This document shows, piece by piece, positions 295 through 36,481 of a DNA stretch of 36,857 bases. How positions within the stretch are numbered: position 1 is the stretch's first letter; each line of letters begins with the position of its first letter. Under the pieces are notes generated by a model, which ran no database searches, was not told the origin of the DNA, and saw only the letters and a list, made by a program, of their open reading frames with translations. Made by a program: the position numbers and the translations under genes. Source of the DNA: a virus; the IMG/VR virus record IMGVR_UViG_3300031772_000127, positions 1 to 36,857 of that record; one strand, written 5' to 3'.

Positions 295-1497
295 TTATTT
301 GCTCGCGCTGTCGTTACCCCCGACATGACGTTGATAGAACTTGCCCCCGACCACGGCATGGTCGGTGATCGGCACGTACTCGATATTCACGTACTTCCGG
401 ACCGTGTCGATGTGCGCGAGGGCGAAGCCGAGTCCCCACCGCTCCGCGTCCGTGTAGGTGGCGTCTCGCTTGTGCAGGCACCCGAGCTGGTGGAACTCGT
501 AGGACCCGAAGTGAGGCGACTGGAACGACCAGGACAGGTGCTTGTGCGAGTGGCCCGACACGCCCGGCATCTGCTTCGCCTTGCCCTGGTCCGTGTAATG
601 GTGGACCAGGAAGCAATCGTGATAGACCTTGAAGTTCCGCTTGATCTCGTCCCGCTGGTCGCCGCGGGTCCAGGAGGCCAGATCTGCCTTGCCGATGTAG
701 TTGACCTGGTACGTCTTCAACCCCAGGAGGTCCGAGACAGACATTCCGTGGAGCTGTTCCAGGATGCACATCATCGACGGCGTCTTGTCGCAAAGGTGCC
801 TGACTAAACGACTTTCGTGATTACCTTCGATCAGGTCAATCTGCGCCTTGGGGCAAACGGCGCGAAGCGGGGCGAGAAGCCTGTCGTGGACGGCCTTGAT
901 CCGCCCTGTCACGTCCCAATCCCGCGGATCGACGTAGTACCTACCAAACTCCGGGAGATCGAAGACATCCCCGCCCAGCACGATCGTCTCCGGCTGCGCT
1001 CTGGCGGCCGTCTCGATAAAGATCTGCAGGGCAAACGGGTCGACCTCCTTGTCATGGAAGTCCGCTCCGACCAGAATCGTCTGGAACCGACCAGACGACG
1101 GCCGCAGATACTTCCCTGCCCACGCCTCCAGCTCCTTCCGCATCTTTCGGTAATGGTCGACCGAGGCGTGCTTCGCGATCTCCAGCTCGAGCTTCTGCAC
1201 CTGCCGGCTGGTGATGATGTTCGCCTGGCGCTTGTACTCGCGGAAGGAGCCGAAGTACCTATTCCAGGTACGTTCCGTCACACCGGAATGGACGCGGAAG
1301 AAGTTCCTGGAGATGACCTGCTCCGGTAGCGCTTCCGCTACGCCGCGGAGTAGGTCGATGCAGTCCTGGGCGGTGAAGTCCAAACGGTCCTCACCAAGAG
1401 TCTCGGAGAACGGGACTCCCCGTTCCCGTGCCGCAGCGAACTTCGCCTTGTGCTCCTGGAGCAGCTTATTGACAATTCGAGACGGCTTCTTGGACAC
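295..1497 (-). CDS. Calcineurin-like metallophosphoesterase with N-terminal HTH-like module
   Basis: This 400-residue protein carries the dimetal phosphoesterase signature in order: GADFHD (D146, H148), GGDVFD (D177), GNHES (N226, H227), VHH near residue 299 and GHSHK (H316, H318). These residues normally bind two metal ions and hydrolyse phosphoester bonds; the substrate is unknown. Residues about 60-95 (TERTWNRYFGSFREYKRQA) resemble the W.FGSF..A.. DNA-binding-like module seen in phage and HNH proteins, so a nucleic-acid substrate is a reasonable guess. The start is GTG at 1497 behind AAGGAA. A TCATGA-N5-TGGTA element lies just upstream at 1525-1546, so the gene probably has its own promoter. 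It is the last intact gene of the rightward-to-leftward series. Confidence 0.88.
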   Translation of the reverse strand: MSKKPSRIVNKLLQEHKAKFAAARERGVPFSETLGEDRLDFTAQDCIDLLRGVAEALPEQVISRNFFRVHSGVTERTWNRYFGSFREYKRQANIITSRQVQKLELEIAKHASVDHYRKMRKELEAWAGKYLRPSSGRFQTILVGADFHDKEVDPFALQIFIETAARAQPETIVLGGDVFDLPEFGRYYVDPRDWDVTGRIKAVHDRLLAPLRAVCPKAQIDLIEGNHESRLVRHLCDKTPSMMCILEQLHGMSVSDLLGLKTYQVNYIGKADLASWTRGDQRDEIKRNFKVYHDCFLVHHYTDQGKAKQMPGVSGHSHKHLSWSFQSPHFGSYEFHQLGCLHKRDATYTDAERWGLGFALAHIDTVRKYVNIEYVPITDHAVVGGKFYQRHVGGNDSASK

Positions 1498-1524: not shown

Positions 1525-1546
1525 CTACTCTACCACCCCCTCATGA
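1525..1546 (-). promoter_or_regulatory. Bipartite promoter-like element, copy A
   Basis: On the minus strand it reads TCATGA, GGGGG, TGGTA, GAGTAG. TG-G-TAGAGT resembles an extended -10 (TGnTATAAT). No sigma-70 -35 is visible at the usual distance; the TCATGA palindrome lies eight bases before the -10 hexamer. The predicted start of transcription is near 1520, giving a leader of about 23 bases with a Shine-Dalgarno before the GTG of the phosphoesterase. It is one of four matching copies in the window. Confidence 0.5.
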
Positions 1547-1551
1547 CTTGA

Positions 1552-1764
1552 TCAGGTGAAGTGGAAGATCTTGAGGAGACCGGCGACAGTACCACCGGAC
1601 ATGGCGGCAATTACAGCTACGCGAAGTTTCACGCCCCAGACGCTGTCCTTCAAGAGATCAACTTTCCCTTCGACGCGATCGAGAGTCTTTGCAGTCGTCT
1701 TGCTGCGTTCCTCCAAGCGAGCGAGGCGCGCTGCACAGTCGGGATTGATCGGGCAGGTTTCCAT
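1552..1764 (-). CDS. XhlA-like holin or holin-associated protein
   Basis: The 70-residue product has the layout of the haemolysin XhlA / small phage holin-accessory family: a polar N-terminus, a predicted coiled coil at about residues 12-42 (ARLARLEERSKTTAKTLDRV), and one C-terminal hydrophobic segment at about 46-68. Such proteins sit in the inner membrane and help release the endolysin; no endolysin is seen next to it. The ATG at 1764 is preferred over the in-frame GTG at 1788, because that GTG lies inside the TCATGA-N5-TGGTA element. From that element the mRNA would start only a few bases before the ATG, so translation could be nearly leaderless. The gene follows the tail-tip protein directly. 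Confidence 0.6.
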   Translation of the reverse strand: METCPINPDCAARLARLEERSKTTAKTLDRVEGKVDLLKDSVWGVKLRVAVIAAMSGGTVAGLLKIFHFT

Positions 1765-1772
1765 GACTTTTT

Positions 1773-1794
1773 CTAATATACCACCCACTCATGA
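1773..1794 (-). promoter_or_regulatory. Bipartite promoter-like element, copy B
   Basis: On the minus strand it reads TCATGA, GTGGG, TGGTA, TATTAG. TG-G-TATATT is a good extended -10. The ATG of the holin-like gene begins ten bases after the -10 hexamer, so a transcript from here would have almost no 5' leader. The element lies in the short gap after the tail-tip gene (stop at 1805). Confidence 0.5.
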
Positions 1795-5542: not shown

Positions 5543-7240
5543 CTACTCCAGGACGGTCTTGACGGGAATCTCGACCACGGCGTCACCCAGGGCGCTGAGG
5601 TGGTGGATCGTGACCTCGTCCGAGTCCATCCGCACCTTCGTAATGAAGTCCACCCTGGACACCTGTGCAACGGATTTGTTGACGCCGAAGGTGGCGGTCA
5701 TCGTGAGCTGCTCTTCGATTGCACTAATCTCGGCACTCGACAGGACAGTCCGAATGATACTGGTCCCATCGGTGAAGGTGATCCGGACGACGTTTAGCGG
5801 CTGGCGGTTTCGAATATATTTCGTATATCCAATGTTCGTGATGGTCAGGACCGCGGAGGACGTCGAGATATTCTGCGTCACGGTCAGATCTGGGAAGAAG
5901 GTCGGAAGGTAGAAGCTGATCGCACGCCCGCGCAGCGCGTGAAGGAGCTGTCGGACCTCCCAGAGGTGTTGCCGCGTCCGGGTACTGAACCGCTTAACCG
6001 CCCCCGGGCGAGCCGCCGTCCAGTCGCTCGTGATCTGGAAGGTCCCCGTCTCATTGTCGATATTTCTGAGCAGGTTCTCCAGCGACTCCTGGAGAGTGTC
6101 TCCGGCGACCATGTTCGGATCGTCCAGGAGGACCTTGGTATTGAAGGAGGAGAAGGCGGCCGTACTGGACAGGTCCACAGTGTTGTCGTAGATAGAGAAG
6201 AGGACATTCCAGTTTTCAACAGCGCGCAGCCGCTTCCCGGCCTTGATGCTGGCGTCGGCATAGGCCATGCGGACCGGCATGATCCGCGTCCCGGCGGGGA
6301 AGGATCCCAGGAAGGCGCTGGTGAACGTGACATGGGTCGCGTCGTAGGAGTCGACGGAGAGGACCTCGAAGGTCTGGTAGTCGGTGTAGGCCACCATCAG
6401 GGATCCGGACCGGAGGTCGGTGTAGGCGGTGCTCTCGACTGCGATCGTGAAGTCGCCAGTGGTGATGGCGGCGGTCGCCACCGTTGACTCGAACCAAACC
6501 GGCATTCCCAGCGGGTTATTCTGCCCGTCGAAAATGTTCGCCTGGAATGCCTGCCGCTCCACGCCGTCCAGGAGGTAGTTCGCCTCGAACATCTGCCGGG
6601 GGAAGGCGCGGAGAGAGGAGCGCTGCTCCGTTCCGTCGCGCCGCAATCGGACGTCGGTGAGGAAACTCAGGTGCTCGATGATCGGCGTCTCGGGCTCATA
6701 GGGGAAGAGGATCGTCCGCTGCCCCGTGATAGGGAGAACGACCATCACCGTGTCGAATCCGAAGTCCAGCTCTCCCAGGATCGTCGGCGGACCGCTGGTG
6801 AGGACCTGCAGAATTAGGTTGTAGCCGGACTGCGGCGGGGTGCTGGACGGGAGGGCGGGGAGGTTCGTAATGACGATTCCTGCCCCCGCCGTGTTCAGAT
6901 AGCTCTGGAAGACCCGGGTTTCCCGCCGGTAACTGCTGTAGAGTTCGATGTAATACGTCTTGGTCGTCAACACCACTCCCGCGGCGATCGACGTGGGGAT
7001 ATAGATGATGTGCTCGAAGAAGTCGTCTCCCGGTCCGGGAATCAGATTCCCGTCGAAGTCTGTGGGGAGGGCAACAGGGGACCCGTTCCCACGTACCCCA
7101 CCGAGAATGCCCAAGGACGGACACTTCCCGGCTTGCTCAATCGACCACTGGAGCGGAGCGTCCTTCGCCACCGTCCAGTAGGTGGGATAGACCCCGTCCT
7201 GGGACAGAGAGAGAATGCTGCCGGCTCGGTTCGTAGGCAT
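5543..7240 (-). CDS. Tail structural protein, probably distal tail / tail-tip component
   Basis: A 565-residue protein between the two fibre-like paralogues and the gpL-like gene. No catalytic motif is visible. The composition is that of a beta-rich structural protein. Position suggests a distal tail or gpM-like tip protein; homologues of this size precede the BR0599 protein in many siphoviruses. The start is ATG 7240, just after the upstream TAA, and no convincing Shine-Dalgarno is seen, so translation may be coupled. The stop at 5543 is almost adjacent to the next ATG. Confidence is high that it is a virion protein and low on its exact place. Confidence 0.6.
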   Translation of the reverse strand: MPTNRAGSILSLSQDGVYPTYWTVAKDAPLQWSIEQAGKCPSLGILGGVRGNGSPVALPTDFDGNLIPGPGDDFFEHIIYIPTSIAAGVVLTTKTYYIELYSSYRRETRVFQSYLNTAGAGIVITNLPALPSSTPPQSGYNLILQVLTSGPPTILGELDFGFDTVMVVLPITGQRTILFPYEPETPIIEHLSFLTDVRLRRDGTEQRSSLRAFPRQMFEANYLLDGVERQAFQANIFDGQNNPLGMPVWFESTVATAAITTGDFTIAVESTAYTDLRSGSLMVAYTDYQTFEVLSVDSYDATHVTFTSAFLGSFPAGTRIMPVRMAYADASIKAGKRLRAVENWNVLFSIYDNTVDLSSTAAFSSFNTKVLLDDPNMVAGDTLQESLENLLRNIDNETGTFQITSDWTAARPGAVKRFSTRTRQHLWEVRQLLHALRGRAISFYLPTFFPDLTVTQNISTSSAVLTITNIGYTKYIRNRQPLNVVRITFTDGTSIIRTVLSSAEISAIEEQLTMTATFGVNKSVAQVSRVDFITKVRMDSDEVTIHHLSALGDAVVEIPVKTVLE

Positions 7241-19405: not shown

Positions 19406-19414
19406 AGAATACCA
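19406..19414 (-). promoter_or_regulatory. Possible extended -10 promoter upstream of the capsid gene
   Basis: In the gap between scaffold and capsid the minus strand reads TGGTATTCT, matching the TGGTA core of the bipartite element but without TCATGA upstream. It could give extra capsid transcript. The match is short, so the call is weak. Confidence 0.25.
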
Positions 19415-26291: not shown

Positions 26292-27746
26292 TCACGATGC
26301 TGTAATTATGAGGAACGGTCTTTCCCCTTGCATGAGGACAAAGATTGTTCCCGTAATTGGATCTGGGGATTGGTCTACGATCTCTACCCTATCATAGACC
26401 CCCATGAGGAGTGTTCGGATTGCTGCAGATAGATCGCCGAGGACAAACACGTCCACAGAACTACCCAGCGCCGTGGCAACTCCTTCTGGTGAATCCGAAA
26501 AATTGGAACCGTCTGTAACGATATCCACCGCCAGCGCGATGGCACTGATCGTCTCAGAGAGTTTCAGCCCGTCAGATGCTCCTCCTTGGATAGTCGCAAG
26601 AGCACTGATTGTCTCAGCGAGTTTCAGTCCGTCCGATGTTCCTACCCGAATAATGGAAAGAGCACTGATCGTCTCAGAGAGTTTCAGCCCGTCAGATGCT
26701 CCTCCTGGAACAAAGCGAAGGACATCAATCACCTCAGATGCGACTATTCCCTCAACAGAATCAACCGTTACCGTCTGGGTCTGAACTTCATCAGCCCCCA
26801 TGTCCCAGGTGACGTTGTTAGAGTCGCGATCGTACCCATCAATGTCGATGTTTACACCGACAGGCGTCGTGCCGAGGTCCACTCCGGCATTTATCGCATC
26901 TGCGCCGGCCTTTAGATGGAGATCTTCAGAACCCAGTACCGTTGAAACGTATTGATTTGAGGAGGATTTATTGATTAGCGAATGTGCCCCATATGCGGAA
27001 GCATCCGAGGATAAATTGTAATCCATCACCGCTTGGACAGGCGAGGAGGGAAAGTAACAGAGCTTCGTTCCTAAAGAAGTCCCCCCCATATCAGTTACGA
27101 TAAGATTTTTTACACGAAGGGTATTATAATCTACACCCCGTATACCAAAAACCCAATCACTATAAGCAGAATCATTTTTTAGATTGTGGATAGTTGAATT
27201 ATATATATTGACATTATAATACTGACTGCAAATAAGATCAAGAGCCCTTAAGGCGCCATAAGAAACTTTTAAATTATATATTATAGAATCAAAAACATCT
27301 AAATTACCCCAAGCGTATATGCCCCTAAAACCGTAAGTATAGAAACCATGCAATATTATTTTTGATATGATTGCCCCATTGTCCATGCGGATGGCTTCGG
27401 CTGTGTAAATATGGGTTTCATTACCGTCAACCTCTAACCACTCAAGTATGGTATTAGCTATTGTTGACTCTAAAAAGATAGAGCCATTATTGTTAAATCT
27501 TGCCCCAGTACCAGCCGTACCATTATGCCTATTACCCACTGCTACCGACAGTTTGCGTGAAGCAAGACCAACAGTACCGCCTCCATTGATGGTTACTGTT
27601 GCCTCGTTATAGACTTGGTTATAACACTCCCCAATTGCGACATCCCCACTGGCGTAGATTCCAGTATCATCAAGATCGGCTTCCCAAGCCGCGATGGTGG
27701 TGTAGTCCCCTCCGCTCGCTTTGATTGATTTGGTGATGGTTGCCAT
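26292..27746 (-). CDS. Beta-helix fibre-like protein 2 with 20-residue repeats
   Basis: A 484-residue paralogue of the gene at 24690-25985: ITKSIKASGGDYTTIAAWEA at the N-terminus, then a beta-helix-like body of short asparagine- and tyrosine-rich coils (NVNIYNSTIHNLKNDSAYSD). Next come three near-identical 20-residue units, for example ASDGLKLSETISALSIIRVG, and the common C-terminus (GVYDRVEIVDQSPDPITG). The body at about 27000-27480 is clearly richer in A+T than everything around it. This suggests the receptor-binding part was acquired separately. ATG 27746 has only a weak upstream site. Confidence 0.6.
   Translation of the reverse strand: MATITKSIKASGGDYTTIAAWEADLDDTGIYASGDVAIGECYNQVYNEATVTINGGGTVGLASRKLSVAVGNRHNGTAGTGARFNNNGSIFLESTIANTILEWLEVDGNETHIYTAEAIRMDNGAIISKIILHGFYTYGFRGIYAWGNLDVFDSIIYNLKVSYGALRALDLICSQYYNVNIYNSTIHNLKNDSAYSDWVFGIRGVDYNTLRVKNLIVTDMGGTSLGTKLCYFPSSPVQAVMDYNLSSDASAYGAHSLINKSSSNQYVSTVLGSEDLHLKAGADAINAGVDLGTTPVGVNIDIDGYDRDSNNVTWDMGADEVQTQTVTVDSVEGIVASEVIDVLRFVPGGASDGLKLSETISALSIIRVGTSDGLKLAETISALATIQGGASDGLKLSETISAIALAVDIVTDGSNFSDSPEGVATALGSSVDVFVLGDLSAAIRTLLMGVYDRVEIVDQSPDPITGTIFVLMQGERPFLIITAS
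26540..26719. repeat. Three tandem 60-bp repeats in fibre-like gene 2
   Basis: Units start at about 26540, 26600 and 26660 with GCACTGATCGTCTCAGAGAG or a close variant. Units 1 and 3 are identical over the first 45 bases; unit 2 differs at several sites. They encode 20-residue repeats with a degenerate fourth unit beyond. Flanking copies in the paralogous gene are more diverged. Confidence 0.9.
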
Positions 27747-28531: not shown

Positions 28532-29998
28532 TTAGAAGTTACTGACTCCCATCGACCGGACCTTCTCCCGCAGCCGATATCGCATTTCGTCCGCGATGTG
28601 GTCCTCGGTTCGCGTGTCCACGTCGTCCATGTCTGTCTTGCCCCGGGGGAGGACCGGCACGGTCCGGAAGAAGTCCTCACATCGCTCGCAGATGAAGAGT
28701 CCGGGTGTTTCCCGGATTCCTTCCTTTCCAGGGATTGCCCCTTTGAGGAGTTTCCGCACCTGCTCCCATCCGTGCTTTCTGCTCCCAGGACGCTTGTCAG
28801 CGCGAGTCCACCTCACGCCTTTCCTAAGCATATCACCAGCGACACTCTTCCCCGGTTCGTAGTCGTCGAAAACGCTGGTGTCTGCGGGTCCCGGGCGCAC
28901 GCGAGCGTCGATCCCCCAGTCCGCTTGTTTCTCTCGAATGCCCTCGGCGATCTGCGTCGACAGGAGACGCACACCCTCGTTGGGGCGTTCGGTGCAGCCG
29001 TACCACTCGGCGATCCGGATGATGTCCCCGCGAACGGCGCCTACCTTCAGCGTGCCGACCATCATCGGCTCTCCATTCGACTCCGCCCACCAGCCGACGC
29101 TGAAAGGTTTAGATTGCCCGTGGTCATAGCTTCGGTTCAGTTTCCACCCGCGGGGAATCTCAGAGAAGACGAGGTTCGGGATCCGATGGTGCGCAGGACT
29201 CCATACGTCGTCGAACATGCCGCCGGCGACGATGTCCCAGTCATCGTTGAGCCAAGCTCTCAGTTCCGCCGGGCTGCGGGCAGCGGCCTTGATCTTATCC
29301 ACATAGTCCGGTTCTGCAGACAAAAGAACCTGGTTCTCTTCAAGAAGAGATCTAATTGCCACCCTGGACAAACTATCCTCAGTGACTACTCGTCCCTCGA
29401 CTTGTCCAGGAGGAATGGGAAGCTTGAATCGAGATTTAACAAAATTGTGTCCAGGACCGTATGGATTAGTTGTAGCCCGGTATTTCCTCGGCATGCCTGG
29501 ACGAGAGGATCTGGAGCAGGCCATCATGACCTTGTAGCACTTATCATCAGGCCAGGTTGTAAGTTCCTCCCAACCAATCCACGGATATGCTGCACCGTGG
29601 TAGTTCCAATAATCATCCTCTTTCTCCATGTAGGAAAGGCGGAGATTCTCTCCAGTCATGAAGACCCAGGTGAACTTCGACTCGTTGAAGATGGCATCGG
29701 GGAAAATGCGAGGGAACCACTTCTTTGTTTTCGTGATGACATCCGAAAGTTGCGGGAATGTCTGCCGAAAAAGGATTCCTCTCCACTCAGCGCCGTACCC
29801 CTGCCCAACATGCTGAGCGAAATCCATGATGAGAGCGTCAGTCTTTCCGCCGCCCCTCGGACCCTCCAGCAGACACTCAAAATGTGGACACCGAAGAAAA
29901 GCGTCCTGCGCCGGCGGCTGTGGTGCCCAAATGAATTTCTGGCCCCGAGCGAATGGAATGAGTCCCTCTTCTGTCTTCTGCCACTGAACGATGTTCAA
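28532..29998 (-). CDS. terL: Terminase large subunit
   Basis: The 488-residue protein has an ATPase Walker A, GPRGGGKT (residues 46-53), a Walker B-like YPWIGWEEL (138-146), the RATTNPYGPGHNFVKSRF motif C region, and a C-terminal nuclease domain opening RSYDHGQSKPFSVGWW with later acidic residues (DDVDTRTEDH). It is the DNA-packaging motor and cutter. It starts at TTG 29998 overlapping the methylase stop (CTTGA), behind GGAATGG. A small subunit is not recognised nearby. Confidence 0.93.
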   Translation of the reverse strand: MNIVQWQKTEEGLIPFARGQKFIWAPQPPAQDAFLRCPHFECLLEGPRGGGKTDALIMDFAQHVGQGYGAEWRGILFRQTFPQLSDVITKTKKWFPRIFPDAIFNESKFTWVFMTGENLRLSYMEKEDDYWNYHGAAYPWIGWEELTTWPDDKCYKVMMACSRSSRPGMPRKYRATTNPYGPGHNFVKSRFKLPIPPGQVEGRVVTEDSLSRVAIRSLLEENQVLLSAEPDYVDKIKAAARSPAELRAWLNDDWDIVAGGMFDDVWSPAHHRIPNLVFSEIPRGWKLNRSYDHGQSKPFSVGWWAESNGEPMMVGTLKVGAVRGDIIRIAEWYGCTERPNEGVRLLSTQIAEGIREKQADWGIDARVRPGPADTSVFDDYEPGKSVAGDMLRKGVRWTRADKRPGSRKHGWEQVRKLLKGAIPGKEGIRETPGLFICERCEDFFRTVPVLPRGKTDMDDVDTRTEDHIADEMRYRLREKVRSMGVSNF

Positions 29999-30696
29999 GG
30001 TAAGATCACCATTCCTTCCAGCCGAGCCTGCTTCTTGCCGTTGGGACGCGAGAGCCGACTAACTATCTCCTTGCCAGGATAGAACCGTTCAAGCACGTCA
30101 GCGTACTCGAAGACCACCACGGCCTCCGCCACTTCCACAATCTTGTCGACCGCATTCCAAAAGACCCGGTAGTCCTCAACATGGCAGTAAGGGACATGCG
30201 AGTTCTTGAATGGGGGATCGAGAATGACGACGGCGTCGACGTACTCCTGCACAGGGACCTTCGTCCAGTCGCCGCAGGTGACCCGTGGACGCAACTCCCG
30301 CCAGTGGGCGAGCGCCTCCTCATAGGCCGACCGAAGCATGACAGCCTCGATGCGCTTGTCGGGAGGCACGTTGAACCCGCCATCCATCTTGTGCCGGAAG
30401 ATCCCGGCGTAGGCGAACCGCTGCAGGCAGAAGGACCACTTCCACCAGTCGGACCGCTTGCGCTTCTCGTAGTAGTCGGCGAGCGTGAAAACTTCCGGCA
30501 CCTCTTGCTGGTCGAAGTGGGACAGGATATGGACGAGGACCGAGTCGATTTCGTTCCAGAGCGGATCGGGGCCGGCCAACGCGAAACTGATTGCGGCAGA
30601 TCCCGCGAAAGGCTCGACCATTCGCTTGCCCTTGAACTGGGAGAGGCGAGAGACCCACCGGCCTTTCCCCCCGAGGTAGGACGGAAGTATTTTCAC
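29995..30696 (-). CDS. D12-class DNA adenine N6-methyltransferase (Dam-like)
   Basis: From GTG 30696 the 233-residue protein reads VKILPSYLGGKGRW, the usual start of the D12 family. It has the SAM-binding PFAGSAA (29-35) and catalytic DPPF (160-163). The GTG overlaps the previous stop (GTGA) and follows GGCGGAAG; a longer reading upstream has shadow composition. It probably methylates phage DNA at adenine, protecting it from host nucleases or timing packaging, since it is translationally coupled to TerL. The target site is unknown. Confidence 0.88.
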   Translation of the reverse strand: MKILPSYLGGKGRWVSRLSQFKGKRMVEPFAGSAAISFALAGPDPLWNEIDSVLVHILSHFDQQEVPEVFTLADYYEKRKRSDWWKWSFCLQRFAYAGIFRHKMDGGFNVPPDKRIEAVMLRSAYEEALAHWRELRPRVTCGDWTKVPVQEYVDAVVILDPPFKNSHVPYCHVEDYRVFWNAVDKIVEVAEAVVVFEYADVLERFYPGKEIVSRLSRPNGKKQARLEGMVILP

Positions 30697-31267: not shown

Positions 31268-31572
31268 AATTCCACCTCCACTCCAATGCTCCCCGACCAC
31301 CGGACCTCGGGAATCGTGGCCTCAAGTTGCCCGCGCAAGCGGAGCCGATCGATGCTCCATGTGAACGCCGTCTGGCCGATCGGAATCGCGTCCCCGGAGG
31401 CCGCGTCGTAGCGGTACCCCGGCCCCGCATCGACCATGATGTTCTCGAACGGCCGCAGGCGAGACCCTCCGGTTGAGTCGAGATAGTGGCTTGGATAGCC
31501 GTACTCGACCCGTGCGAAGCGGGTGCAGCCTGCCGCGAGGAGTGTCAGGAAGAGGATAGCGGCGCAACGCAC
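31264..31572 (-). CDS. Small lipoprotein
   Basis: From GTG 31572, behind a strong GGAGGTG, the 102-residue protein has a short basic start, a hydrophobic core and lipobox LAAGC. The mature part alternates polar and hydrophobic residues (FTWSIDRLRLRGQLEATIPE, SGSIGVEVEF), like an amphipathic beta-strand protein. It would be anchored in the envelope. It is too beta-rich for a typical Rz1-like spanin. Envelope modification or exclusion is possible. The start lies within the end of the HTH gene. Confidence 0.6.
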   Translation of the reverse strand: MRCAAILFLTLLAAGCTRFARVEYGYPSHYLDSTGGSRLRPFENIMVDAGPGYRYDAASGDAIPIGQTAFTWSIDRLRLRGQLEATIPEVRWSGSIGVEVEF

Positions 31573-31769
31573 GGCACCTCCGAGGTGGACCTGACCTTCA
31601 CCGAAGCCATCCACTGGTCGAGGTCCACCCGGGAGTACCGCACATTGCGGTGACTGATCTTCGAGAATGGCGGACCGCCTCCGCTCACCCGCTTATGGTC
31701 GAGAAGGGACCGCGAGACATTGATATATGCAGCGGCCTCACGGGGAGATAGGTAGGATTGCTCTGTCAC
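31545..31769 (-). CDS. HTH_17 excisionase/AlpA-like DNA-binding protein, first gene of the late operon
   Basis: A 74-residue protein with the MerR-like helix-turn-helix of the excisionase family: YLSPREAAAYINVSRSLLDH, then GGGPPFSKISHRNVRYSRVD and LDQWMAS. GTG 31769 is fixed by GGAGG eight bases upstream; the ATG codons just before it run into a stop. It lies behind bipartite element D and ahead of the packaging and head genes. A role in switching on the operon or in excision is inferred. A related protein is encoded at 33229-33417. Confidence 0.8.
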   Translation of the reverse strand: MTEQSYLSPREAAAYINVSRSLLDHKRVSGGGPPFSKISHRNVRYSRVDLDQWMASVKVRSTSEVPCVAPLSSS

Positions 31770-31818
31770 ATCATGATCCTCCGTGGAAGGTTGTCGTGGT
31801 AGTGAACTGCGTCTGCGT

Positions 31819-31840
31819 CTACCCTACCACGGGGTCATGA
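31819..31840 (-). promoter_or_regulatory. Bipartite promoter-like element, copy D (late operon)
   Basis: On the minus strand it reads TCATGA, CCCCG, TGGTA, GGGTAG. It sits between the integrase terminator and the first gene of the 31-kb structural operon, and would start transcripts near 31812 with a leader of about 45 bases. No normal -35 is seen at the proper distance. TCATGA is embedded in GACTCATGACC. Confidence 0.5.
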
Positions 31841-31845
31841 GTCAG

Positions 31846-31878
31846 AAAAAAGGCCCGAGGTGATTAGCCTCGGGCCTT
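31846..31878 (-). terminator. Rho-independent terminator of the integrase transcript
   Basis: AAGGCCCGAGG (31850-31860) pairs perfectly with CCTCGGGCCTT (31868-31878) around a seven-base loop; on the minus strand the stem is followed by six Ts (31851-31846). On the plus strand no U-run follows, so it serves minus-strand transcripts. It insulates the integrase from the late operon. Confidence 0.9.
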
Positions 31879-31896
31879 CAGATCGCGTCTTGTCAG

Positions 31897-31930
31897 GTCC
31901 GGTCCCGTCCAGTCCGGTCCTATCCGGTCG
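31897..31930. repeat. Short direct repeats downstream of the integrase gene
   Basis: GTCCGGTCC occurs at 31897-31905 and 31912-31920 and, varied, as ATCCGGTCG at 31922-31930; TCGCGTCT flanks them at 31883 and 31933. They lie between the integrase stop and its terminator. They may be protein-binding sites or slippage products. Confidence 0.5.
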
Positions 31931-31960
31931 AGTCGCGTCTATTCACGACACGTCGCGAAA

Positions 31961-33127
31961 CTATTTCAACTTCTTCAAAATAAAATCGGTGACGGCTTCT
32001 TGGCAAGTCCTCAAATGTTCAAGGTCCTGTCGGATATACCCCGCCGTCACGCTGCCCTTCGGCGGGCGATGGTTTGTGAGGACATCGATGTCATAGGAGG
32101 AAAGTCCCACTTCGGCACAGGCGGTTGAAAATGAATCCCTCAATCGGTGCGGCGACTGGCTCCGCTTGCGCCCCCAGCGCCGCAGGACGATCGGGATCAC
32201 CTTCCCGCCCCTGCTCTTCGTCGGGAAGACCCAGCCCTCATCCTGATCCTGGCTCTCTTCCTTGCGCCGGCGGAGCAGCTCCACGGTGTAGGTGGAGAGG
32301 GGAATGGTGAAGGCACGGTCCTCGCCGCCCTTGGGGCAGGGGCGATGGAGCGTCTTCTCGACGAGGTCGAGATCGTCCCATCTGATCGTCGCGGCATCCT
32401 CGCTGCGAAGTCCTGTGAGGAGAACCACATATAGGTAGTCACGGAGGACCGGGGAGAGGGCGTCGACCGTTTCCCGCCACGCCGGGAGGTTCGCCCAGGC
32501 GATCGGCTCCTGGCGCCGCTCGGCCTTGTTCCAGTCGATGCCGATGGTCGGGTTGGCCGCCGGGAGGTCATGGCACTTCAGCGCGACGTTGTAGATGGCC
32601 CTGAAGTACCGGAAGACGATGTTGGCGGCGTAGGGGCCTTTCTTCCCTGTGATCTGGCGGTGTCGGGTCCGGCACTCGTCCTTCGTGATCTCGGCGAGCG
32701 GACGGGGGAGCCAGTCCCGGAGAAGCCGGCCGGTGTCCTCCTGGACGTCCGCGATCGTCGCATCACTACCGCCCTTCGAGCGCAGGCGTGCGATGTACTC
32801 GTTGATGGCCTGTGAGAAGAGGATGCCCCGCGCCTCCTGCCGGCGGCGCTCGGCGTAGGGATCCTCGCCCTTATCCAGCCCCACGATCAGCTCGGAGGCG
32901 TACTTTCTGGCGGCGTCAGGCGTCCACGGCCCGTACCGGCCGATCTTGCGGCGCCTGTCCTTCTTCTGGAGGACAAAGGTCTTCGCCACGATGCCGTTGA
33001 TCGGATCTGGTCTCCCTACGAGGAGTCCGAATCCCCCAAGTGTTGGATCCCAATAAAGTTCCTGCGTCTTGATCGTGGGCGGGTCGATGGCGTCGATGTT
33101 CTTCTTGGTCAAAATCAGCGAGGGCAT
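31961..33127 (-). CDS. int: Tyrosine integrase
   Basis: A 388-residue tyrosine recombinase of the P4-like type. The N-terminal arm-binding/DUF4102-like part (DPTLGGFGLLVG, RRRKIGRYGPWTPDAAR) and core-binding domain precede the catalytic domain with R241 (LLTGLRSEDA), H327 and R330 (SPHRLRDSF), H353 (TNHRPP) and nucleophile Y364 (TAGYIRQD). It integrates the phage at a host tRNA gene whose 3' end lies at 33644-33671. ATG 33127 lies behind GAGGAGG, and a good sigma-70 promoter with an operator-like palindrome precedes it. Confidence 0.95.
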   Translation of the reverse strand: MPSLILTKKNIDAIDPPTIKTQELYWDPTLGGFGLLVGRPDPINGIVAKTFVLQKKDRRRKIGRYGPWTPDAARKYASELIVGLDKGEDPYAERRRQEARGILFSQAINEYIARLRSKGGSDATIADVQEDTGRLLRDWLPRPLAEITKDECRTRHRQITGKKGPYAANIVFRYFRAIYNVALKCHDLPAANPTIGIDWNKAERRQEPIAWANLPAWRETVDALSPVLRDYLYVVLLTGLRSEDAATIRWDDLDLVEKTLHRPCPKGGEDRAFTIPLSTYTVELLRRRKEESQDQDEGWVFPTKSRGGKVIPIVLRRWGRKRSQSPHRLRDSFSTACAEVGLSSYDIDVLTNHRPPKGSVTAGYIRQDLEHLRTCQEAVTDFILKKLK

Positions 33128-33163
33128 GTGTTCCTCCTCATATCCAAATAGAAACTACATAGA

Positions 33164-33192
33164 AAGATACCAGGATACAGACCTGGAGTCAA
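33164..33192 (-). promoter_or_regulatory. Integrase promoter with palindromic operator in the spacer
   Basis: On the minus strand TTGACT and TATCTT are separated by 17 bases, with TG one base before the -10. The spacer contains CCAGG-N7-CCTGG, a dyad at 33170-33186 that could bind a dimeric regulator and block the promoter. Confidence 0.7.
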
Positions 33193-33228
33193 GTGAGGCT
33201 GTATCTATAGACCAGATATATGTAACCG

Positions 33229-33417
33229 TCATCTCAGGACTCGGCGCTGCTCGGCCCAAAGATGGAGATCATCCATCCGGTATTTTACGATCTTGCCTCC
33301 GAACTTGAAATACTTGGGGCCAGACCCGTCCGCTCGACGAAGAACGAGATACCGTTTCGACACACCAAGAAGATTTGCCGCTTCTTGTGGGGACAAATAG
33401 CGCTTGAGGTCTTCCAT
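33229..33417 (-). CDS. HTH_17 excisionase-like protein, upstream of the integrase
   Basis: A 62-residue protein: YLSPQEAANLLGVSKRYLVL forms the helix-turn-helix, then GSGPKYFKFGGKIVKYRMDD and LHLWAEQRR. It matches the excisionase (HTH_17) family and is likely Xis or an AlpA-like activator of int. The ATG at 33417 is chosen; the GTG at 33438 lies inside element E. No Shine-Dalgarno precedes the ATG; if E is the promoter, the transcript would start at or next to the ATG and be leaderless. Confidence 0.75.
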   Translation of the reverse strand: MEDLKRYLSPQEAANLLGVSKRYLVLRRADGSGPKYFKFGGKIVKYRMDDLHLWAEQRRVLR

Positions 33418-33422
33418 GTCCA

Positions 33423-33444
33423 CGATAATACCAGGCACTCATGA
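33423..33444 (-). promoter_or_regulatory. Bipartite promoter-like element, copy E
   Basis: On the minus strand it reads TCATGA, GTGCC, TGGTA, TTATCG. TG-G-TATTAT is the best -10 of the four copies. The ATG of the HTH gene begins seven bases after the hexamer, the distance expected for a transcription start. Confidence 0.5.
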
Positions 33445-33799
33445 GGGGATGCCAATAAGCCGGTAGTAATCAATAAATTGGACATTTATAGGATATCCAT
33501 GGCGCTCAATATGCGCTGAAAAGTTACAGGGAAAACCACACAACCTCCACAACTATCTGAAAATGCCGTATCCAAAACCCTATGGAGATTGAGGTTGTAA
33601 TTACGGGGAATTTTCCCCAGTCTGTGACTCTGGATCTCCTTGTCGAGGTTCGAATCCTCGTCCGGCAACCACTATTCTACCAGGGGTTGTGGGATTCTGG
33701 TCATGAGTCATGGTTTTAGTAGTAAGGTCATAAAAAGTAACGGGCACAAAGGTTGCTCTGGAGAAGAGTTATATGGTATTCTTTTCTGGAGGTATCCCC
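33445..33799. other. Non-coding attachment and regulatory region
   Basis: A 355-base stretch without a convincing gene. It holds an imperfect palindrome GGGGAATTTTCCCC (33605-33618), inverted ACAACCTC/GAGGTTGT repeats about 43 bases apart, the tRNA 3' end, a TGGTAGAAT core on the minus strand (33674-33682) with TCATGA further away, and the Shine-Dalgarno of the plus-strand lipoprotein. The shared inverted motifs may be integrase/excisionase arm sites. Confidence 0.6.
33616..33671 (+). other. Putative attP core: 3' part of a tRNA gene
   Basis: 33644-33660 forms a perfect T-arm (CGAGG-TTCGAAT-CCTCG), followed by TCCGGCA, discriminator A and CCA. Upstream, CCAGT-CTGTGAC-TCTGG resembles an anticodon arm with GTG. 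The D-arm and the 5' acceptor strand (TGCCGGA) are absent, and the variable region is ten bases long, so this is not a full tRNA. The discriminator A and acceptor do not fit tRNA-His. A phage attP copying a tRNA 3' end explains it. The host tRNA remains unidentified. Confidence 0.7.
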
Positions 33800-34174
33800 A
33801 TGAAGACGATCCTAATCTTCGCGCTGTTACTGTGCAGTTGCGCCCCGGTGCCCGTCTACCACGCCCAGGTCGCGCCCAGGGCGCTGGGGTTGGTGAGGGG
33901 GCCGGCGGACCCTGCCGCGGAGGCCACGGCGCTGGTCCGACGCCTGGCAGCGGGTCCGATCGACGTTCAGATCCGGAAGGTGTACACCTGCGAGCTGGCC
34001 GGGCGGGGATGCACCTGCGTCGACCTCTTCACCCGAGGCCAGGGGCTGTCCGACGGGTCACTCTTCTCATGGGATAGATACATCGTCGGGTTCTACGAGG
34101 ACCACACCATCGACATCGACCGGGTCGATCGGGAGCTGAGAAACATCGGACACGCGGAGGTCGGCCGGTGGTGA
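33800..34174 (+). CDS. Plus-strand small lipoprotein (possible lysogenic conversion gene)
   Basis: The only gene on the plus strand. ATG 33800 lies behind GGAGG. The 124-residue product begins MKTILIFALLLCSCAPVPVY, a signal peptide with lipobox LCSC. The mature part has three cysteines (YTCELAGRGCTCVDLF) and a conserved-looking C-terminus. Between attP and the methyltransferase, transcribed against the rest, it fits a moron-type gene expressed from the prophage. Its last 108 bases overlap the methyltransferase gene tail-to-tail. A TGGTATTCT core lies 15 bases before the ATG, but too close to spare the Shine-Dalgarno. Confidence 0.65.
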   Translation: MKTILIFALLLCSCAPVPVYHAQVAPRALGLVRGPADPAAEATALVRRLAAGPIDVQIRKVYTCELAGRGCTCVDLFTRGQGLSDGSLFSWDRYIVGFYEDHTIDIDRVDRELRNIGHAEVGRW

Positions 34175-34735
34175 TGGCGCCTGGTCGCCCCACACGTCCC
34201 ACCCGGGGGCGGCCGTGCGGGCGAACAACTCGATGCGAGGTCCGGGGCTGAGGGACTCGACGAGGGTGCGGAACTCCTGGGGCTTCTCGGAGTGTCGGTT
34301 GATGCGGGGGGATTCGATGACCTCGGGCAGGTCCGGTGCCTTGAAAATGTTCCCCTGACGCCGCATTGCCGCGGTGCGCTCCGGCTTGCCAGAGACGGCG
34401 AGGATCAGCACCTCCGCCTGGCTGCGGAGCCAGCGGCCGGGACCGATCCGCTTCTTGTCCCACACGATCTCCCCGACCCATCGGAGGCCCCAGTGGTCGA
34501 GGAGTTCATGGGGAATGCGGTCCCTGATTTTAGGCCAGGTGGCCCAGCACCAGAAACAGGCACCGTCTTCGGCTGCGAGTTCTGGCACACGGAGCTTCTT
34601 CAACTCGTCGAGGGACATGGTGGGGTACTGTTTGGCGGCAGCACCAGTGCAAGTAGAGTCATGGTAGGACCACGGAGGATCAAGATAGATCGTCTTGAAG
34701 CGGCCGGCGCCCTCTTCGAGCGTTGAGAGTCTCAC
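34067..34735 (-). CDS. MT-A70 family DNA adenine methyltransferase
   Basis: A 222-residue protein with FKTIYLDPPWSY (DPPW at 19-22), the QYPTMSLDELKKLRVPEL motif, CFWCWAT and the distal RQGNIFKAPDLPEV...HSEKPQEFRTLVE block. This is a full MT-A70 domain that transfers a methyl group to adenine N6; in phages it usually modifies genome DNA. Core similarity ends near FARTAAPGWDVWGDQ; the last ~40 residues overlap the convergent lipoprotein gene and may be an extension. GTG 34735 overlaps the stop of the preceding small gene. Confidence 0.9.
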   Translation of the reverse strand: MRLSTLEEGAGRFKTIYLDPPWSYHDSTCTGAAAKQYPTMSLDELKKLRVPELAAEDGACFWCWATWPKIRDRIPHELLDHWGLRWVGEIVWDKKRIGPGRWLRSQAEVLILAVSGKPERTAAMRRQGNIFKAPDLPEVIESPRINRHSEKPQEFRTLVESLSPGPRIELFARTAAPGWDVWGDQAPSPPADLRVSDVSQLPIDPVDVDGVVLVEPDDVSIP

Positions 34736-35566: not shown

Positions 35567-35772
35567 AAGGGATCCTTCAGGATCATGGCTGCGGCGTCGT
35601 TGGCGCGAGTCTCCTCGCTGTAGTGATAGGAACAATCGTTCTGGGTGTTGGACTGCTCCACTGTCATGGCGTGCGCCTCGTCGTTGCAGAAGTCACAGCC
35701 ACAGGGGTATGGGCTCCAATCGAGGTGGATGCCGTCGTCGAACCAGAGGCAGGTGCGGCAAGTTCGGATCAT
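35563..35772 (-). CDS. Cysteine-rich small protein, likely metal binding
   Basis: A 69-residue protein from ATG 35772 (ATGA overlap with the previous stop). Cysteines occur as MIRTCRTCLWFDD, PYPCGCDFCN and NDCSYH, consistent with a zinc-ribbon-like fold. Function unknown. The longer upstream reading is proline/arginine-rich shadow. Confidence 0.6.
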   Translation of the reverse strand: MIRTCRTCLWFDDGIHLDWSPYPCGCDFCNDEAHAMTVEQSNTQNDCSYHYSEETRANDAAAMILKDPF

Positions 35773-36251
35773 GGTTTTTCGATCCTGCTGTTGTTTCTGA
35801 CGGCGTCGGTAACCAGGGTCATGCGGCGAAGGATCTCTGCTTGGACTTCCGTGGTCTCTATCGAGAAGGTGTACGTGAATCCGTCGCGCCAGTTGTCGGT
35901 GACGGACTGATCGATATTGATGACGCGGATTACCTCGTAGATTTTCGGAAGGCGGTGGATGAAGGTGGGGGTCAGGACCTGCTTTGCTTGGGGGTGGAGA
36001 ATGGTCGCCCGCAGATAGGTGCCCTGGCACCCGTCGTCGAATATCAGGTGGACTCGGTCCGGACGTGCCTCTTCAGGGCCTTGGCCCTTGCGCCAGAGGC
36101 ACTGGTAGATGCGGCAGGTTGTCGGTCGGCGGCTGTAGATGTTGCATTTATGTTCCTGGTTGTTGAGGTAGGAACATGTTATGCCGGCAGGCTTCTTATC
36201 AAGCTTGAAGGGGCTGCAGCAAGCCGTACAGGGATGGCACTGTCTACTCAT
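35769..36251 (-). CDS. CxxCxxCC (YkgJ-type) metal-binding protein
   Basis: A 160-residue protein from ATG 36251 with CHPCTACCSPF at the N-terminus and EHKCNIYSRRPTTCRIYQCL further on. This is the cysteine pattern of the zinc- or iron-chelating YkgJ/UPF0153 family. The biochemical role is not established. It is in a coupled series of small genes, with ATGA overlaps on both sides. Confidence 0.75.
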   Translation of the reverse strand: MSRQCHPCTACCSPFKLDKKPAGITCSYLNNQEHKCNIYSRRPTTCRIYQCLWRKGQGPEEARPDRVHLIFDDGCQGTYLRATILHPQAKQVLTPTFIHRLPKIYEVIRVINIDQSVTDNWRDGFTYTFSIETTEVQAEILRRMTLVTDAVRNNSRIEKP

Positions 36252-36481
36252 TTCTTTTTTCGCACTCCCAACGCGGTGCCGAACGCTCCTCCCACTGAGA
36301 AGGCGAGGAGATTCGCGACGGAGTTTGTTTGGATGATCGCCCAGGCAGAGCCGAGGGTGACGATGTTCAGGGCGAGGGCGTAAATGGATGCGCGAAGTGG
36401 ACGCTGTTGGGTGACTTGTGTAATCGTTTTGGTCCACAAGATGTCCGTAATTAGGCCAACAATGAACAGGATTGGGATCAT
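36248..36481 (-). CDS. Small membrane protein with two spans
   Basis: A 77-residue protein from ATG 36481 (overlapping the upstream stop). Hydrophobic stretches IPILFIVGLITDILWTKTIT and SVANLLAFSVGGAFGTALGV flank a polar middle with RPLRASIYALALNIV; it ends in VRKKK. Similar small membrane proteins occur in many phages, and a holin-like or superinfection role is possible. Confidence 0.6.
   Translation of the reverse strand: MIPILFIVGLITDILWTKTITQVTQQRPLRASIYALALNIVTLGSAWAIIQTNSVANLLAFSVGGAFGTALGVRKKK

Follow-up and report, generated by a model that had tools for sequence, protein, structure and literature searches.

Among the described systems closest to the locus studied here, RdfS is the excision factor (recombination directionality factor, RDF) of ICEMlSymR7A in Mesorhizobium and binds without a clear sequence motif (PMC11963761), and XisF4 of phage Pf4 is an excisionase with a further role in repressing and activating phage promoters (PMC7379572). 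Other elements carry two genes of this kind: AlpA of EcCIMP1 likewise serves in excision and at promoters, and the second AlpA there is dispensable (PMC11773190), and of VefA and VefB on VPI-2 one is needed for excision (PMC3014918). Among phage promoters, the middle promoters of T4 join a MotA box, centred at -30, to a TGn/-10 motif (PMC2988021).

The locus described below lies in a viral sequence of 36,857 nucleotides (IMG/VR record IMGVR_UViG_3300031772_000127), the whole of which we call the window. It contains two related regulator genes that a first-pass annotation had taken, together with the element TCATGA-N5-TGGTA ahead of them, for a possible lysis/lysogeny switch without a CI repressor. 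We favor another explanation and consider it, taken as a whole, probably correct: one protein would be an optional excisionase, the other a second RDF-type regulator, and the element a promoter class. Such a striking layout of two related regulators and two identical sites can stem from a genome-wide promoter element instead of a dedicated switch, and it is a partial relative together with a near-identical sibling that tells the switch and promoter readings apart.

Layout of the integration region

The window is a genome fragment, and two partial metagenome contigs, both from one metagenome sample, reach past its two ends. The sibling contig G001 (14.7 kb, 98.5-99.2% identical) spans the right half of the window and the structural start, and the relative G002 (23.7 kb) aligns with the left end of the window at 94.7%. 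The integration region comprises the following features:

31545..31769, minus strand: HTH1, a 74-residue HTH_17 protein (winged helix-turn-helix, wHTH, of RDF/AlpA type) with a GTG start behind GGAGG (open reading frame, Pfam and PDB match)
31850..31878, minus strand: intrinsic terminator between the integrase gene and element D (11-bp arms; fold -23.3 kcal/mol, z -5.0)
31882..31944, minus strand: array of GACNN pentamers by the terminator and element D, downstream of the integrase gene (10 matches versus 0.55 expected)
31961..33127, minus strand: tyrosine integrase (Phage_integrase and Arm-DNA-bind_3, phrog_1; profile matches)
33164..33192, minus strand: integrase promoter-like site, TTGACT-N17-TATCTT, in which TGG precedes the -10 and the TCATGA box is absent
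33218..33627, no strand: 410-bp stretch with HTH2 and element E, replaced in G001 by 35 unrelated bases (comparison with G001)
33229..33417, minus strand: HTH2, a 62-residue HTH_17 protein (open reading frame, Pfam and PDB match)
33628..33671, plus strand: attP core, corresponding to a tRNA gene's 3' half with T arm, acceptor end and CCA (from the sequence, with the edge at 33628 common to G001)

Both HTH reading frames are thus found on the minus strand on either side of the integrase gene, exactly where they had been placed before. From high to low coordinates, the minus strand carries small genes and an MT-A70 methylase, the att core, HTH2, the integrase, the terminator and HTH1. HTH1 is the first gene of a closely spaced operon that continues via large terminase, portal, head (including capsid) and tail genes, and at its far end stand the genes of a small protein whose C-terminal stretch is hydrophobic (1552-1764) and of a metallophosphoesterase (295-1497). 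Beyond the window's right end, G001 has a small terminase gene. With it, the coding strand reads small terminase, methylase, attP core (the tRNA 3' half), HTH2, integrase, terminator and HTH1, and then the large terminase with the remaining structural genes. The region most likely comprises the integration module of a temperate siphovirus and the beginning of its late operon, and the large terminase resembles those of the Mesyanzhinovviridae PaMx11, PAE1 and SN1 (about 56% identical).

We also considered the core as an attL or attR site with host DNA to its right and rejected this reading because G001 carries the small terminase gene beyond the core, which places the core inside the phage, as attP. 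No whole tRNA gene is present at the core, and a search of the genome collection for a host with the exact tRNA core gave no match. The integrase profile found only distant matches in genomes (22-30%), all of them in Acinetobacter except one in Rhodocyclaceae. An HTH_17-like gene accompanies the distantly related integrase in 11 of 27 such loci, mostly adjoining it, and the same 27 loci hold 0 copies of TCATGA-N5-TGGTA.

Several further features of the window deserve mention in their own right. A 60-base tandem repeat of about 3 copies lies within a coding stretch (26536-26724), and the minus strand has two adenine methylase-type genes, at 29995-30666 and 34067-34735, of the D12 class and of the MT-A70 type. 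Beside the att core, the opposite (plus) strand carries a short lipoprotein-like gene (33801-34174) and, at 33774, a promoter-like TATGGTATTCT site belonging to it, and the small-gene region includes a protein with a CxxCxxCC zinc/iron-chelating domain (35769-36437, minus strand).

The TCATGA-N5-TGGTA element

TCATGA-N5-TGGTA occurs exactly 4 times in the window, always on the minus strand, whereas 300 dinucleotide shuffles gave 0.003 on average. These copies, the genes behind two of them and two further promoter-like sites are:

1531..1546, minus strand: element A, TCATGAGGGGGTGGTA, with -10 TAGAGT, before the metallophosphoesterase gene
295-1497, minus strand: metallophosphoesterase gene, behind element A
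1779..1794, minus strand: element B, TCATGAGTGGGTGGTA, with -10 TATATT, before the gene of a 70-residue non-HTH protein
1552-1764, minus strand: the 70-residue non-HTH protein with the hydrophobic C-terminal stretch, behind element B
31825..31840, minus strand: element D, TCATGACCCCGTGGTA, with extended -10 TGG-TAGGGT (31829-31821), before HTH1
33429..33444, minus strand: element E, TCATGAGTGCCTGGTA, with extended -10 TGG-TATTAT (33433-33425), before HTH2
33674..33682, minus strand: extended -10-like site TGGTAGAAT beyond the att core, reading toward HTH2 and the integrase, with no box at the usual spacing
19406..19414, minus strand: extended -10-like site TGGTATTCT, without a box, in the gap that precedes the gene of the major head protein

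As the first-pass annotation had noticed, an exact copy is followed directly by HTH1 in the case of D and by HTH2 in the case of E, and the units led are those it named, the morphogenesis operon for HTH1 and the integrase side for HTH2. Its reading of the element as the regulatory site of the HTH proteins themselves is not supported by the wider comparison. Copies A and B lead to genes without HTH_17, and G002 holds 3 copies, namely A, B and one identical to D over 16 bp, the last of which again precedes a non-HTH gene, here for a protein with an L7/L12-like C-terminal domain. A sensitive profile search detected no HTH_17 protein in the 23.7 kb of this partial contig; the element therefore persists where HTH genes are absent, within the sequence covered, and an HTH_17 gene could lie beyond it. 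The box is not specific to HTH_17 genes, and an HTH-specific element is ruled out by A, B and the G002 copy.

The G002 gene directly behind the D-like copy (6070-6807; the contig is also labeled L027) encodes a coiled-coil-like stretch in addition to the L7/L12-like domain (TIGR00855, E=1e-11, below cut-off). Noncoding DNA of G002 also has GACNN arrays, at about 16696 and 19027; one immediately precedes the D-like copy, and another follows the DNA polymerase gene.

One extra base is common to the copies, the final T of TGGTANNNT, which makes them resemble extended -10 promoters; a T at the last -10 position is kept in 5 of 5 known copies. All copies show the TGn and TANNNT of a sigma-70-type extended -10, rightly placed before a gene and in the form TGG-TANNNT. 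Against a hand-picked gene set from the list of open reading frames, TGGTANNNT occurs at 7 coding-strand sites in about 1627 noncoding bases, versus about 0.4 expected by simple base counting, and 4 of these 7 have TCATGA exactly 5 bases upstream. The three boxless ones are the integrase promoter-like site, the site beside the att core (33682) and the one before the major head gene (19414). No -35 was found where the TCATGA box sits. Since the boxless integrase site has TTGACT and four of the seven sites are boxed, we take the box as the mark of a promoter subclass without a clear -35.

Judged from these sequence patterns, the element is most likely a phage promoter class composed of an extended -10 (TGG-TANNNT) and a TCATGA box, and a poorly known group of temperate siphoviruses would thereby gain a defined candidate class of promoters. 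The extended -10 would serve a host-type sigma factor, with the box at about -26 to -21 in place of the missing -35, and some phage or host factor would probably bind the box and thereby co-regulate at least 4 transcription units. By the usual spacing, transcripts from E and B are predicted to be near-leaderless, beginning only a few bases from the start codon, with the start at E about 1 base ahead of the HTH2 ATG if the -10 is read correctly; D and A leave space for a leader and ribosome site.

A protein at the box is also suggested by ACTCATGACCCCG, which lies beside TCATGA on the minus strand in D and on the plus strand in B: its presence in both orientations points to a bound protein rather than to a sigma contact. 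Such a pattern, as expected of a protein-binding site, would fit a rival reading in which one of the HTH proteins, more likely HTH1, binds the TCATGA of all four copies (A, B, D, E) and turns the late units on or off together, and HTH1 does head the late operon and is retained in G001. The rdfS gene likewise heads a transfer operon, and RdfS binds at its own promoter besides acting on other promoters (PMC11963761). However, the boxes are present and HTH1 is absent in the 23.7 kb of G002, and RdfS binds long stretches without a consensus motif, not a 6-bp palindrome (PMC11963761), so that we regard control of the box by an HTH protein as unlikely. The same binding without a clear motif means that an absent motif leaves room for HTH binding at D or E, and autoregulation by HTH1 or HTH2 is possible. 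The more elaborate proposal that box and extended -10 form an undescribed promoter class switched by the RDF-type HTH1, which would couple prophage excision to the onset of late expression while HTH2 served the integration side as a second, exchangeable protein, strikes us as distinctly unlikely. Should an RDF-type protein in fact control the box, a single step would link excision with late expression.

The TGGTA half of copy E might instead be an integrase arm-type site (CCTGGTA), which would assign E to attP and make its resemblance to A, B and D partly coincidental. CCTGGTA is found at 33174, 33435 and 33684, on the same strand and around the core, and IntS of ICEMlSymR7A has arm sites of the form TGKTGGTATC (PMC11963761). 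Yet three copies of some 7-mer are expected by chance at this length (265 of 500 shuffles), and we rejected CCTGGTA as arm sites because it is not significant against the shuffles. E moreover has TCATGA at the exact spacing and the -10 TATTAT, and an origin of E as an arm site therefore seems highly improbable to us; a promoter-type element is the reading that we retain.

A wider scan of viral contigs for the element gave, besides G001 and G002, a single match per contig, several of which look like ordinary -35/-10 promoters, so that these matches do not widen the class. TCATGA-N4-GTGGTATAATAG is seen in the unrelated viral contigs L030, L036, L048, L033, L038 and L045, several of which have a TTGACW -35 at 17 bases, like ordinary promoters. 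Within the window, the exact 12-base repeat GGTCATGAGTCA occurs on the plus strand at 31833-31844, in element D, and at 33699-33710, beside the att core.

HTH1, HTH2 and the question of a switch

The two proteins are indeed related factors of the excisionase/AlpA type, as had been proposed. Both are wHTH proteins that pass the cut-off of Pfam HTH_17 (PF12728; 29.8 bits for HTH1 and 36.1 bits for HTH2 versus 27), and the nearest solved relative of each is RdfS (PDB 8dgl; E=1.4e-5 for HTH1 and 3.5e-6 for HTH2), a proven wHTH RDF. Both score under the cut-off of the excisionase model TIGR01764, and their PHROG matches include an excisionase/regulator family. They share 37.5% identity across 56 residues, and each is nearer to another phage's protein than to the other, which argues against a fresh duplication. 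Relatives adjoin integrases in Rhizobium phage RHph_Y3_1 and Vibrio phage PVP-XSN; among viral contigs, we found relatives of HTH1 in G001 only and none of HTH2. As expected of RDF genes, both lie near an integrase and att site, HTH2 with the attP core on one side and the integrase on the other, and HTH1 just beyond the integrase. From family and position, HTH2 is most likely an excisionase (RDF) carried as an optional unit, and HTH1 most likely a second RDF-type wHTH regulator that heads the morphogenesis or late operon.

The optional nature of HTH2 is suggested by the sibling contig. G001 retains the integrase, the att core, element D and HTH1, and lacks HTH2 together with element E. Faulty assembly at the tRNA-derived repeat could account for this difference, but a simple collapse is disfavored because 35 replacement bases are present. 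The window and G001 form a natural pair, of which one has the excisionase-like gene and the other lacks it.

These observations bear directly on the proposal that HTH1 and HTH2 each bind their own copy of TCATGA-N5-TGGTA and together form a lysis/lysogeny switch without a CI repressor. An exact copy immediately ahead of each HTH gene as first gene speaks for it, and wHTH excisionases can govern lysis/lysogeny and their own promoters, with XisF4 of Pf4 and RdfS as examples. However, the element also stands ahead of non-HTH genes, G002 has three copies and no detectable HTH_17, and the two HTH genes are not conserved together, given that G001 has HTH1 without HTH2 and E. The 37.5% identity of the two proteins does not suggest a common site. 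A strong terminator between the integrase and element D and, between HTH2 and the integrase, the separate integrase promoter-like site are predicted to insulate the units. Since the window is a fragment, the absence of CI is not something that can be claimed from it, and a repressor may be encoded elsewhere in the genome. The CI-less switch has no specific support, and we consider it very unlikely; HTH1 and HTH2 probably do not make up a lysis/lysogeny switch on their own.

Comparison with known systems

By large terminase and a related tail module, the phage resembles the Mesyanzhinovviridae, and the exact element is absent from the scanned parts of PaMx11, PAE1 and SN1. As a putative promoter, the element is akin to the T4 middle promoters in having a phage-specific box in place of the -35 next to an (extended) -10, but the MotA box has another sequence and is centred at -30, whereas TCATGA would lie at about -26 to -21. 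A MotA-box sequence at -30 accompanied by MotA/AsiA is not what we found, and no relative of MotA or AsiA was seen among the scanned proteins.

The two-gene arrangement recalls EcCIMP1 and VPI-2, which have two AlpA/RDF-type genes per element, one alone being required for the element's own excision. These are satellite and pathogenicity islands, unlike a phage with its own structural genes, and a shared promoter element is not reported in the passages considered here. PVP-XSN similarly has two adjacent HTH genes by its integrase, the second HTH being weakly similar, but in PVP-XSN and RHph_Y3_1 no terminase/structural operon follows next within the stretch examined. XisF4 differs in belonging to a filamentous phage with a single excisionase and a partner repressor, Pf4r (PMC7379572).

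The closest parallel is RdfS, the nearest solved relative of both HTH1 and HTH2, which acts in excision and on promoters including its own and whose gene heads a functional operon; we liken the place of HTH1 at the head of the late operon to that of rdfS at the head of the transfer operon. RdfS differs in belonging to a conjugative element, in an extra N-terminal helix and in having no consensus DNA site, whereas this phage has two such proteins and a sharply conserved promoter element.
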